From the NCBI GenBank assembly GCA_003142595.1, contig PLMU01000007.1, positions 210,548 through 246,924 of the forward strand: DNA of 36,377 nt, read 5' to 3'. Each line of letters opens with the position of its first letter. The stretch's first letter is position 1. A model generated the notes under the pieces. That model ran no database searches, had not been told where the DNA came from, and was given only the letters and a program-made list of their open reading frames with translations. Below are positions 7,238 through 24,522 of this stretch, piece by piece. A program made the translations under genes and the position numbers. This DNA comes from Phycisphaerales bacterium. GTDB taxonomy: Bacteria; Planctomycetota; Phycisphaerae; Sedimentisphaerales; UBA12454.

Positions 7238-7321
7238 GCCGAAGTGGCGGAACTGGCAGACGCGCAGGATTCAAAATCCTGTCCTCGCAAGAGGGTGTGG
7301 GTTCAATTCCCACCTTCGGCA
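7238..7321 (+). tRNA. tRNA-Leu (anticodon CAA)
   Basis: 84 nt class II tRNA. The acceptor GCCGAAG/CTTCGGC pairs fully; D-arm with GGCGGAACTGGCAGAC; anticodon stem CAGGA/TCCTG around loop TTCAAAA (anticodon CAA); a long variable arm at about 7281-7295; and T-arm GTGGG-TTCAATT-CCCAC. The discriminator is A7321 and CCA is not encoded. Its last 17 bases recur twice downstream (8576-8592 and 9178-9194). Confidence 0.96.
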
Positions 7322-7336
7322 TTAAAGAGAGATTAT

Positions 7337-8539
7337 ATGTTAATAAAAATTATCCTAATCAGGCGGAACATCTTATTTGCGGTACTACTCTGCTTTGCCT
7401 GCCGCGGGCTGGCAGATACCTTCACTAATAAAAAAACGGGAGAACGGTTTAACGGTTATGCCGTGAAAACAACACAGACAGCAAAGATGGCGGTGCGAAG
7501 CACTGCGCGAGAAGGAATCAGGTATATTGAGCGGGCAGATTATGATATTGTTTATAATGCCGAGGGAAGACGAAACCAAATTTTCGTAATCGATATGAAT
7601 GAACCTTTGATGCTCGAATGCGAAACAGCGGCATTTGAGAAAGCCATTAAACTATCCGAGAATCAGGGGAATTTAGCGATAGTTATAAAGATTGACACTC
7701 CCGGAGGCAGGATTGACCTTATGAAGCGATACTGCACTGCTATTGCCGCGGTAGATATGACACCTGTCATCGCAGTAGTATGCGGAGGAAAAACCGGGGG
7801 AGCGTATTCGGCCGGCGCTATAATCGCGATGGGATGCGACAAGCTTTATATGGGAGAAAATACGGCAATCGGAGCCGCGACGCTTTTGGTAATAGACGCT
7901 AATGATGAGTTTAAAAGCGCCAAGGCCGCATACGGTGATGTGATAGGAGAAAAAGTCGATTCGGCTCATCGTGCGTATTGCGCAAGTGTTGCCGAACATG
8001 CCGGAAGAAGCGGATTACTCGCTCAGGCAATGATTAACAAAGAAATTGAAGTCATTGCCAGGAAAACCGAAAATGGCAAGTACGAAATTTTAGACGGCAG
8101 GGACATAAAGGACAGTAACACAAAAGATATAATAATTGTTAATCACAAAGGTTCCCTGCTGACATTGTCGGCGAAACAGGCGGTAGATATCGGCTTTGCT
8201 GACGGCCAGATAGACAGTTTTAATATTTGGAAGCAGAATGGCCCATTTACCCAGAGTAAATGGATTGTCTGCCAGGATATTCAAGCAGCGCACCGGCAAT
8301 ATTTGACTTATGACAGCCAATTCCAGACTGCATTGATGATTATTAAGCAGCTTAAAACCAAAATTCATATTACCCCCTCAAAGACAGAGATGCGTGATTA
8401 TTTCGGCGGAATAATCGAACAATATAGACTGATTATCGCTTTGAAAAAAAATTGCAACGATTTGCCGGTGGAAATGGATTCTCTTGTTTCAGAACTGGAC
8501 CAGTTTGTGATATTGTATAATAAATTGAGTAACCAATAA
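7337..8539 (+). CDS. Secreted/membrane serine protease of the ClpP-crotonase fold (NfeD/S49-like)
   Basis: 400 aa. An N-terminal hydrophobic signal (residues 7-24) is followed by a ClpP-class domain typical of NfeD/SppA proteases: IKIDTPGGRIDLMKRY, then GGKTGGAYSAGAIIAMGCDKLYM, whose Ser is the likely nucleophile, then TAIGAAT. The C-terminal OB-fold and membrane segments of full NfeD are absent; the last 150 residues are of unknown type. Such proteases cleave membrane or stomatin-like proteins, but no stomatin gene is adjacent. The frame runs back through the tRNA to 7244, so ATG 7337 (AGAGAG upstream) is used. It lies alone between the tRNA-Leu and a second copy of the tRNA tail, suggesting acquisition by insertion. 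Confidence 0.75.
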   Translation: MLIKIILIRRNILFAVLLCFACRGLADTFTNKKTGERFNGYAVKTTQTAKMAVRSTAREGIRYIERADYDIVYNAEGRRNQIFVIDMNEPLMLECETAAFEKAIKLSENQGNLAIVIKIDTPGGRIDLMKRYCTAIAAVDMTPVIAVVCGGKTGGAYSAGAIIAMGCDKLYMGENTAIGAATLLVIDANDEFKSAKAAYGDVIGEKVDSAHRAYCASVAEHAGRSGLLAQAMINKEIEVIARKTENGKYEILDGRDIKDSNTKDIIIVNHKGSLLTLSAKQAVDIGFADGQIDSFNIWKQNGPFTQSKWIVCQDIQAAHRQYLTYDSQFQTALMIIKQLKTKIHITPSKTEMRDYFGGIIEQYRLIIALKKNCNDLPVEMDSLVSELDQFVILYNKLSNQ

Positions 8540-20550: not shown

Positions 20551-20718
20551 TGTTGCGTTCAATAATGACAAATTACATTATTCGTATTATTAGAGTTTTC
20601 TTTAAGGCTTATATAATACAGAATAACCGATCCATTTTCCAATATAATTCGTCATTATTATTCCGCCCCCTTTTGGGGGGCAATCTCCATTGAATCGTCT
20701 TCTCTGAAGATGGGGGGC

Positions 20719-20751
20719 CGTCATTGCGAGGCCCGCAGGCCGTGGTAATCT
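20719..20751 (+). repeat. Dispersed intergenic repeat of the CGTCATTGCGAGG type
   Basis: CGTCATTGCGAGGCCCGCAG continues into GCCGTGGTAATCT. It resembles the common CGTCATTGCGAGG...AAGCAATCT element. It lies 25 bp from the end of the accessory genes. Confidence 0.65.
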
Positions 20752-20775
20752 AAATCCATTTTTTAAAAAACATAA

Positions 20776-21522
20776 TTATAACTCCTGTAGAAACGCAAAA
20801 AACTCATCAAATGTTTTGGAATCTTTCCAAATAGGTTTATTTATTTTGATACGAATAGGACCTTCATTTATCACGATTTCAATATCACCAGAACTCGCTA
20901 TTTTCTCTTGTTCCTCTTTAATATTTTCTGCCTCATCAACTTTATCTTGTATCTTACTTCCAATATCAGTAACAAATCTTGCACTCTTTTTTATGCTCTC
21001 TTCGTTGGGTTGTGAGTTATCCACTTCAATTACACATAGAACATGATTGTCTGGATTATCCCGTGCCTCTTTAGCTTGAGGAAGTGTCATTTTTACATAA
21101 TCTTGAGTAGTAGATTTAAGTTCAATATAATAAGCTTTATTCTCTTTCTTGATTTCAAAAACTGTTTCTGCGTTATCTTTTACACAGTCATATTCTATCA
21201 AAAAGTCGCTTCCTACTCTAATTTTTTCTACTTTGAAACCTTCTTTTTCAAGCACGCTTTTAAGAAGGTCTTCAACTAAAGCGCCCATAAATTGATTCCT
21301 TCGAATTTGTTCTCTGGTCTCTATCCGCTCTTCCATTTCCGCTATGAATAACTCTGATTCACTTTCTGCTAATTCGGCAATCTTACTTAATTGATGTGGA
21401 TTTGACATGAATGTATTGAATAGCGAACCCATTGCTTTATCCAGTTCAAGTTTAACTTTTTCGTCCTTAGTCACAAAATGCATCATAAGTTCGCCAATAC
21501 TTATGTTAAGTCTACTCAACAA
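20776..21522 (-). CDS. DUF3883-type PD-(D/E)XK nuclease-fold protein (second part of a split gene?)
   Basis: 248 aa. A helical, charged N-terminal half (to residue 85) ends in TREQIRRNQFMGALVEDLLKSVLEKEGFKVEK. A restriction-endonuclease-like core follows: D106 in GSDFLIEYD, E134-x-K136 in YYIELKST, and Q149 in MTLPQAKEA, which together make a complete PD-(D/E)XK-Q active site. The upstream ORF ends at a TAA (21552-21550) in exactly the same frame, nine sense codons before this start. The only early starts are TTG (21522) and ATG (21486, 21483), and none has a good ribosome-binding site. It is therefore probably the C-terminal part of one ancestral protein with the GHKL ATPase, or is made by readthrough or reinitiation. 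AT-rich compared with comM. Confidence 0.75.
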   Translation of the reverse strand: MLSRLNISIGELMMHFVTKDEKVKLELDKAMGSLFNTFMSNPHQLSKIAELAESESELFIAEMEERIETREQIRRNQFMGALVEDLLKSVLEKEGFKVEKIRVGSDFLIEYDCVKDNAETVFEIKKENKAYYIELKSTTQDYVKMTLPQAKEARDNPDNHVLCVIEVDNSQPNEESIKKSARFVTDIGSKIQDKVDEAENIKEEQEKIASSGDIEIVINEGPIRIKINKPIWKDSKTFDEFFAFLQEL

Positions 21523-21549
21523 TCTTGAAGGTTTATCTTGTGTACAATT

Positions 21550-24021
21550 TTATATTAATTCTCCATGTCCTTCCCCTTCAAAAAGTACGGCTAAATTTTG
21601 CGCACTTGCTATATCACTTTTATCCTTTTTAATAGGGACCCACTTTCGATTTTTAAGTCGAGCCATCCAGAATGCCGGATAAATTCTATGGTTTATGCCA
21701 CATCCACAGCTAACTTCTAAAGTACAATCCCATTTATTGTCTTTTTCGATGATATATACAAAAAGAAACTCTAAAAATTTCCTAGCTTTATTTTTAGTTT
21801 TTCTCATCGTTTCAATAATGCCTATGTCTTCTGTATCAAGAAAAGCTATTTTACTTACCGCAACATCATCCATTATTTCATGTTCTTTTTCTTCATCCAA
21901 TTTTTCTCCAGATAATAAAGATTCTAAATTATCTTGGGACAATTTTTCATTCTCATTATATAATGGATCAGTTAAAATCAATGTTTCATTTTCAAGTTTG
22001 TTCCAATCATCTCTGTTTGAATTTTTTTCATAGTATAAAGAAGAAACGATAAATTCTTGTGGAAAAAGTTCTGCATATTTTTTTGCAGTTTCATTCCAAA
22101 TCTCTTTAGGCGCAAGAAGTCTCCCTTTAAGTTGTTTGCTTAAAGATGTAAACGTCTTATCTTTCGAGGAAAGAACGGGATAACCATCAAAACATTCAAA
22201 TTTATTATGTTTTAATAACCAATCGAACAGTTCTATATTGGCTTGGACATATTGAATATCATCTGGCGAAGATTGTTTAATTTTAGATGAAATTTGATCC
22301 AGAACTTCTTCTTGTTTTTTTACTGAGAGTAAATTTTGAATTACTTCATCAATGCTTAAATGAAGCAATTGACTCCGAACACCTATCTTTAATTTGTCAG
22401 AAATATCTTTTAATATTTCATCTATTCCTTCGTCTTTATGCAATTGAGTCTTTTTTGTTAATATCCCATTTTGGTCCGGTACGATATTTTTTTCGTCAAG
22501 CAATTCTCTTTTTTCTGCTCCAAGCAGAAGTCCATAGAAAACGTTAAGTGTGTCAATTTCATCTACATCACCGCTCAATTCATTTTTGAAATCTTTAAGA
22601 CTTCCACACTCCTCTATTAAGGCTGCAATTTTTACAATTGTGATTTCTATTTTTGTTATTAAATCTAAGTCTAGAAATTTCCACCCATTGATTATTTGCA
22701 TCCACTCAAAGGCGAGTTCCTTTGCGGGCATCTTTTTCTTGTAGTTCAAAAATCGATAGCAAATATCCCACAATATTTTAACTTTTCCCTCATTCAAACC
22801 ATCAAAATTTGGTATGAGTCCTTCATTGAGATTTATAAAGGTTCCAAGTTCTGTTTTAAGAACTTTTGATTTACAGATTCCTTCAATACATGTCTTTAAG
22901 AGGCTATTATACCAATCTTTATCCTTCAGCCATTCGGGCGGACAACTAAATTTTAGTATAACATGAAGATTGCTCCATTTGTTTGAATCTGAACTAGAAA
23001 TAAAATCACCAAATAACTCATTTGCCTCCTCTAAAAGTTTTTTATTTTGTTTAATATCGTCGGTATCTTCTCTACCAAGAAATATGCCATCTCTCTCTGC
23101 AGTTGGTTTGAATTTCCTACTATTAATCACTGCGGGAAACGATAAATCTCGAGTGCCAAAAAGGGGAAAAGCAAGAAATATTTTTGGGATATCAAATAAA
23201 TCATCTATTTGATAGGTTTCATCATTTTCCTTTTTTCCCTTTATAGCTATTTCAACATCTTCATTTTTAATAATCCATAATTCATGATCTATGTCGATTT
23301 GTGCTTCCCTTTTTTGTTTAATTGTTTTCTGTGTGTAGGCAGTTTCATTGCTTTCATTAACCAATTCAAATTTTAACTCGCTACCATTTTCTGTAATTTT
23401 AATGCAACCTAATTTATCATTAAACGCAAGCACATAGGGTGCAATTTTAGTTAAGTCTTCAATGCCCGCTTCAACAGTTTTTAAACTAATATCGTTTAAA
23501 GGATATTTGTACTCGGCACTGTAAGAAGTGGAAGCCGATTTTGAGTCTACAAGTGATTTTTGATATGTCTCCCAAGTTTCTTCCATTTTAGTTTTGATTC
23601 CATCGGGCGAATTACTTTCTCTGTCTAATTCAAAACTAAAGCTTTTATTATCTTCTCGGACTCCATTGACAATTATTTTTTTTGATAAAAGATGGGATGT
23701 AATAAAACCTGTTCCAAATTTCCCAATGTCTTGCTCTCCTTTAGTGGAGCCATGATAAATAAGATGCGATACTTCTTCACGTTTGAATGGGCGACCGTTA
23801 TGTCGGAAAATTATTTGCGTATCATTTTTGATTATTTCAACTTCTATTTTTCTATCTGACGGAGCTGTATCTAAAGCATTTTGCATGAGTTCCCATATCC
23901 AACATTTCTCATAGATTTCACGTTGGTTTCCTATTTCGTTTAAATGGTTAAATATTTCTTGCGCCGTGTTATCAATTAGTGTTTTCTGTTTTATTTCCTC
24001 TTCTAGTAAATTTTTAGTCAT
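21550..24021 (-). CDS. Sacsin/Hsp90-like GHKL ATPase, putative anti-phage or conflict-system protein
   Basis: 823 aa from ATG 24021 (GAGG seven bases upstream; TTG 24033 is weaker). The N-terminal GHKL ATP-binding domain has the N-box ELMQNALD (E44, N48, D51), FRHNGRPF (residues 72-79, where classical Hsp90 has D-x-G) and IGKFGTGF (99-106). The remaining 600 residues are helical and lack a recognisable enzyme domain; the C-terminus has FWMARLKNRKWVP, a repeat-like element of sacsin-type proteins. Related bacterial proteins that I recall continue into a DUF3883 nuclease domain, and here the nuclease follows in the same frame after one TAA. Low GC, unusual codon use and flanking repeats point to transfer. 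The defence role is inference. Confidence 0.82.
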   Translation of the reverse strand: MTKNLLEEEIKQKTLIDNTAQEIFNHLNEIGNQREIYEKCWIWELMQNALDTAPSDRKIEVEIIKNDTQIIFRHNGRPFKREEVSHLIYHGSTKGEQDIGKFGTGFITSHLLSKKIIVNGVREDNKSFSFELDRESNSPDGIKTKMEETWETYQKSLVDSKSASTSYSAEYKYPLNDISLKTVEAGIEDLTKIAPYVLAFNDKLGCIKITENGSELKFELVNESNETAYTQKTIKQKREAQIDIDHELWIIKNEDVEIAIKGKKENDETYQIDDLFDIPKIFLAFPLFGTRDLSFPAVINSRKFKPTAERDGIFLGREDTDDIKQNKKLLEEANELFGDFISSSDSNKWSNLHVILKFSCPPEWLKDKDWYNSLLKTCIEGICKSKVLKTELGTFINLNEGLIPNFDGLNEGKVKILWDICYRFLNYKKKMPAKELAFEWMQIINGWKFLDLDLITKIEITIVKIAALIEECGSLKDFKNELSGDVDEIDTLNVFYGLLLGAEKRELLDEKNIVPDQNGILTKKTQLHKDEGIDEILKDISDKLKIGVRSQLLHLSIDEVIQNLLSVKKQEEVLDQISSKIKQSSPDDIQYVQANIELFDWLLKHNKFECFDGYPVLSSKDKTFTSLSKQLKGRLLAPKEIWNETAKKYAELFPQEFIVSSLYYEKNSNRDDWNKLENETLILTDPLYNENEKLSQDNLESLLSGEKLDEEKEHEIMDDVAVSKIAFLDTEDIGIIETMRKTKNKARKFLEFLFVYIIEKDNKWDCTLEVSCGCGINHRIYPAFWMARLKNRKWVPIKKDKSDIASAQNLAVLFEGEGHGELI

Positions 24022-24257: not shown

Positions 24258-24522
24258 GGCAATTCTGGACATTAAAGATTAACCAAATTTCTCCCCAAAA
24301 ACCCGTTCAAAACCTGCTCTTTTTGATGTTTTTCGTGTTATTTTCCCTCACTTTTCATCATTTTTCCCTCATTTTCCGTGAATTTCGACGTGTTTTTTTA
24401 GCTTTTCGAAGCGCAAAACAATTAAAACATACACGTTTGTTAAAAAAAAAGACGTTTTTGTTCGAACTTTTTTCCATAACTCCTTATTTTATTTTTCAAA
24501 ATAACGATTTATGACAGATTCC

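Follow-up and report, generated by a model that had tools for sequence, protein, structure and literature searches.

An in-frame TAA interrupts a TmtA-type gene of the Tiamat family in a Phycisphaerales genome

Family assignment of the interrupted gene

Tiamat, an anti-phage system with the protein TmtA, was reportedly described by Millman et al. in 2022. It is regarded as a defence system of unknown mechanism (PMC12926258, PMC10482375). We analysed a stretch of 36,377 nucleotides from a Phycisphaerales bacterium (hereafter, the window), in which the minus strand from 24021 to 20776 comprises 823 codons, a TAA, and 257 further codons in the same phase up to a final TAA. An initial annotation of this DNA had proposed that the frame of a GHKL ATPase ends at the TAA in 21552-21550 and that the frame of a nuclease continues in the same phase. 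Translation confirmed both points and showed that this TAA is the sole stop in an otherwise unbroken frame of 1,081 codons, with no frameshift; the continuous protein of about 1,080 residues expected upon removal of the stop codon was thereby obtained. The features of the gene are as follows.

21553..24021, minus strand: N-terminal part of TmtA, a GHKL/Hsp90-like ATPase module; 823 codons from an ATG start with an AGGA-type ribosome-binding site up to the internal stop
21550..21552, minus strand: in-frame TAA, codon 824 of 1,081, inside the predicted helix 820-827
20779..21549, minus strand: C-terminal part of TmtA, with the last ~30 residues of the ATPase body, a flexible linker (~851-900) and a predicted PD-(D/E)xK nuclease domain
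21286..21288, minus strand: internal in-frame ATG (M912), with AAGGA ahead of it (-5.0 kcal/mol)
20776..20778, minus strand: natural terminal TAA of the TmtA gene

The part upstream of the internal stop matched the PADLOC TmtA model PDLC03967 (Tiamat) with 489 bits over model positions 9-796, and the downstream part matched it with 157 bits over positions 824-1057. The read-through protein reached 656 bits over positions 9-1057 of 1063, approximately the sum of the two halves. As in TmtA, both modules are matched over their full length and in the same order, and the length is similar (1,081 versus 1,063 in the model); the difference is that the frame in the window is split by the TAA at codon 824. 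Judged by these matches, the gene is an interrupted member of the TmtA/Tiamat family whose chain is not intact. General domain models gave lower scores: HATPase_c matched the ATPase part with 24.8 bits, just below its cut-off of 26.4, and NOV_C/DUF3883 (PF13020) matched the nuclease part with 19.1 bits, under the gathering cut-off of 22.1, which was cleared by one relative (L012, 25.7 bits). A SACS domain was matched only weakly, in another relative (L016). The suggestion that relatives carry a sacsin-like ATPase and a DUF3883 nuclease in one chain was thus right about the single chain, whereas the family is TmtA and the DUF3883 assignment stays below threshold.

When bacterial and archaeal genomes were scanned, 80 loci were returned. 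Among the loci that were retrieved, all open reading frames that matched the nuclease part also hold ATPase sequence; because ATPase motifs served as seeds, a stand-alone nuclease far from its ATPase would be missed. When the joined parts were aligned, 17 relatives from Bacteroidota, Planctomycetota, Chloroflexota, Pseudomonadota, Rhodothermota and archaeal bins ran through the junction without a break there, and no consistent encoding of the nuclease as a separate gene emerged. In a tree of the ATPase part, the window sequence fell in a clade of nine (97% SH-aLRT), all of them fused. The closest relative of the window protein shares 34% identity with it, and the nearest one from the same order, on a contig labelled Sedimentisphaerales, 27%. 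The ATP-binding GHKL residues E44, N48, D51, H74, G100, F102, G105 and F106 are invariant across the 18 sequences and present in the window, and the nuclease residues conserved in the family (G913, G937, D939, E967, K969 and Q982), all of which lie after the stop and of which G913, D939, E967, K969 and Q982 are invariant, are intact in the window protein. Column 824 of the alignment is variable, mostly polar or absent in the relatives, and a stop in none of them. Homology, phylogeny, structure and composition together support the reading of the locus as a single gene that one in-frame TAA interrupts.

Predicted structure and position of the internal stop

An AlphaFold2 model of the whole chain, based on the 18-sequence alignment, had a mean pLDDT of 84. 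In this model, residue 824 lies within a helix (820-827) of the last subdomain of the ATPase module, and a low-confidence linker extends over residues ~851-900, beginning about 30 residues past the stop. The earlier impression that the text around the stop reads like a normal linker was therefore not borne out. Because the stop falls inside a helix and about 30 residues ahead of the flexible linker, where a natural gene boundary would be expected, the model indicates that its site is a poor place for such a boundary.

The best PDB matches of the ATPase-part model were Hsp90 structures (Foldseek, E 9e-9). The likeness to Hsp90 and sacsin-like GHKL ATPases comprises this Hsp90-like model and the conserved residues of the N-box and glycine-box; however, only the fold is shared, with ~11% identity and a TM-score normalised by the query of 0.2 over the whole chain. 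The nuclease domain, folded separately, reached a pLDDT of 82 and resembled Hjc Holliday junction resolvases (Z 9-10.9; the best match covers 115 residues at 3.0 A) and other PD-(D/E)xK nucleases, among them the effectors of SPARDA (Z ~8). On the basis of these models, the C-terminal domain is a predicted PD-(D/E)xK nuclease fold in which the active-site signature D-ExK-Q (D939, E967-x-K969, Q982) is conserved. It resembles nucleases of the Hjc/NOV_C type in these respects and differs from them in that the NOV_C score is below the cut-off and no solved nuclease was matched by sequence. The matches that a profile of the nuclease alignment gave among solved structures were all weak and uninformative, de novo helical proteins among them.

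Genomic context, translation starts and a distant two-gene branch

The ATG at 24021 shows Shine-Dalgarno pairing of -5.6 kcal/mol. After the internal stop, nine codons (NCTQDKPSR) precede the first possible start, TTG 21522, and, as had been annotated, no ribosome-binding site accompanies it; pairing is -0.2 kcal/mol, essentially none, for this codon and for TTG 21519, so that near its 5' end the C-terminal part lacks any start preceded by a ribosome-binding site. The next plausible start, ATG 21288, sits at the core of the nuclease domain and could in principle initiate a nuclease-only product of ~170 residues; a methionine at the position of M912 is absent from the aligned relatives. An open frame of 257 codons would arise by chance in random sequence of the same composition with p ~1e-10, and GC3 is alike on either side of the stop (0.243 and 0.253; about 0.44-0.55 in neighbouring genes). 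We considered whether same-phase adjacency and the missing ribosome-binding site prove by themselves that a gene has been split, and rejected this argument: with the window included, 33 same-phase pairs of long open reading frames occur in ~376 kb of the same genome, and many of the second members have no Shine-Dalgarno start. Since such pairs are common, these two signs are weak evidence alone, and it is homology that decides.

The TmtA gene stands alone amid housekeeping genes. Downstream of it lies a gene of the Mg-chelatase/ComM family, and upstream are a gene for a Rex-like regulator and one resembling elongation factor P. The GC content of the TmtA gene is 0.32, compared with 0.42-0.51 in its neighbours. 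The gene is absent from the six further genomes that belong to the genus and from each of the 12 others searched in the family, so that comparison with these related genomes offered no sister allele. The low GC content and the absence from sister genomes make a recent horizontal acquisition probable. No close DNA copy or sister-strain allele was detected in phage or plasmid collections or, with a single-sequence query, in IMG/VR, and the genus, the order and a sample of the phylum gave remote homologues at most. In other members of the genus where both the Rex and the Mg-chelatase/ComM genes were found, they lie on separate contigs, which precludes an empty-site comparison. A search around the gene for marks of an insertion boundary (direct repeats, integrase, tRNA) gave nothing convincing.

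Three other observations were made in the window. Directly 3' of the gene, at 20690-20755, lies a GC-rich, palindrome-like intergenic sequence (accacggcctgcgggcctcgcaatgacg) that resembles REP-type dispersed elements. For the 60-nt intergenic stretch 24454-24513, located between Rex and the gene, a sister genome holds an 80% match on the opposite side of Rex (L103:1060-1118); the stretch is perhaps a dispersed repeat. A tRNA-Leu (CAA) at 7238-7321 lies across the 5' end at which an NfeD-like open reading frame (7244-8539) could be annotated; this frame therefore probably starts further downstream.

Distant members of the TmtA ATPase family consist of the ATPase alone (about 805-863 aa, most with the C-terminal tail LG..LK..GI..IPL) and are immediately followed by a separate gene with an N-terminal AlbA_2 domain and a C-terminal TIR_2, PNP_UDP_1, RiboL-PSP-HEPN or unknown domain. 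The loci of this branch are the following.

L049:5941-9345, L067:5854-9285, L080:5956-9365, L086:5938-9361 and L075:5881-9615: two-gene ATPase and AlbA_2 loci
L059:130-3758, L022:5852-9447, L034:5908-9582, L047:1212-4824 and L027:5872-9476: further loci of the same branch

Their domain content suggests a modular sensor-plus-effector system, and no description of a GHKL and AlbA defence system was found in the literature searched. The N-terminal ~560 residues of these ATPases are homologous to those of the window protein. However, their partner is AlbA_2 fused to TIR, PNP, HEPN or an unknown domain, and their ATPase ends in a conserved tail which the window protein does not have. Membership of the window gene in this branch was rejected, since its ATPase part does not end in such a tail at residue 823, the open reading frame that follows encodes the nuclease, and the next gene belongs to the Mg-chelatase/ComM family.

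Interpretation of the interrupted frame

We consider it likely that the window carries a horizontally acquired, single-gene TmtA that was recently cut by an in-frame nonsense mutation at codon 824. The intact gene would encode one chain of ~1,081 residues, an Hsp90/GHKL-type ATPase followed by a PD-(D/E)xK nuclease effector, in which the ATPase module would be expected to sense or gate; an intact member of the family would presumably act against phage through nuclease activity. With the nonsense mutation, translation would end ahead of the nuclease and the cell would make only an ATPase stub without the last helices of its own module, the nuclease stretch being intact as DNA and effectively untranslated. 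Because the stub lacks both the nuclease and these helices, the system as it stands is very probably inactive. About 4.8% of the possible substitutions in the gene would create a stop. If the stretch evolves neutrally, the absence of a second stop and of any frameshift limits the further substitutions since inactivation to at most ~26-63, that is, 0.8-1.9% divergence (95% bound; the value varies with the indel rate that is assumed). This leaves three possibilities: a very recent nonsense mutation, an erroneous stop, or parts on which selection still acts.

The main rival is that the organism holds an intact TmtA and that the TAA is an assembly or base-calling error, which we regard as unlikely while giving it more weight than any other alternative. 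A single codon stands alone in an otherwise intact and catalytically complete gene, and the assembly, an incomplete one of 18 contigs, is possibly a metagenome bin, all of which would suit an error. However, what breaks the frame is a stop of the substitution type and no frameshift, there is no general error load, and none of the remaining genes in the window seems to be split; among five same-phase pairs checked by Pfam elsewhere in the genome, the three in which both halves could be named proved to be unrelated, separate genes. A nonsense mutation is most likely, and we infer that it is real. The possibility that the stop is functional has also to be weighed. That the ATPase and the nuclease are made as separate polypeptides, by reinitiation or from the start at 21288, and then assemble is an improbable explanation: both halves look intact, AAGGA precedes ATG 21288, and the distant branch of this ATPase family does have two genes, but the first starts past the stop have no ribosome-binding site, the cut within a helix separates the last ~30 residues of the ATPase body from the rest of it, M912 is not conserved, and all of the window's clade of nine is fused. 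The two-gene branch itself gives no support to this explanation here, because the window matches neither its tail nor its partner.

Programmed readthrough or recoding of the TAA as a regulatory device would account for the in-phase continuation into an intact effector, and we hold it to be very improbable. TAA is the commonest stop among the neighbouring genes (16 of the 24 listed) and none of the 47 detected tRNA genes has a UUA anticodon, so that an alternative genetic code or a suppressor tRNA was rejected; a structured readthrough element was rejected as well, the RNA 3' of the stop being no more structured than its shuffles (z -0.17). In addition, no relative has a stop conserved at codon 824. 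Taken more broadly, a stop that yields two polypeptides or a rare readthrough fusion could limit a toxic nuclease while keeping the defence available, which would make this a newly split or translationally throttled Tiamat; we give this scenario little credence. Of the explanations that the initial annotation had left open, the results speak against the two-gene form and regulated readthrough; a nonsense mutation and a sequence error remain, with preference for the mutation.

Several relatives are independently broken, by frameshifts (L032, L056 and L065) or by C-terminal truncations (L041 and L069). The TmtA relative of Thermoflexibacter ruber (L069:5941-8883) is 93% identical to the intact L074 up to residue 867; there, shortly ahead of the nuclease, it is cut off by transposase-like sequence, and has thus lost its nuclease end independently. 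In L041:5863-10323, a TmtA-type ATPase shares 94% identity with L030 as far as residue 858 of 1026, beyond which its end diverges; this end is followed by a gene with AlbA_2 and HATPase_c_4. Loss of such defence genes appears to be common.

A nonsense mutation in the window gene would mean that a costly defence gene was cleanly inactivated, probably very recently, after its horizontal transfer, which fits the fast gain and loss of such systems. The predicted domain boundary of the TmtA family is fixed as well: the Hsp90-like ATPase comes first, and a flexible linker joins it to the PD-(D/E)xK nuclease. Across the family members surveyed, the same ATPase is used with interchangeable effectors, either a fused nuclease or a separate AlbA-TIR, AlbA-PNP or AlbA-HEPN protein, and this makes the mechanism of Tiamat more testable.
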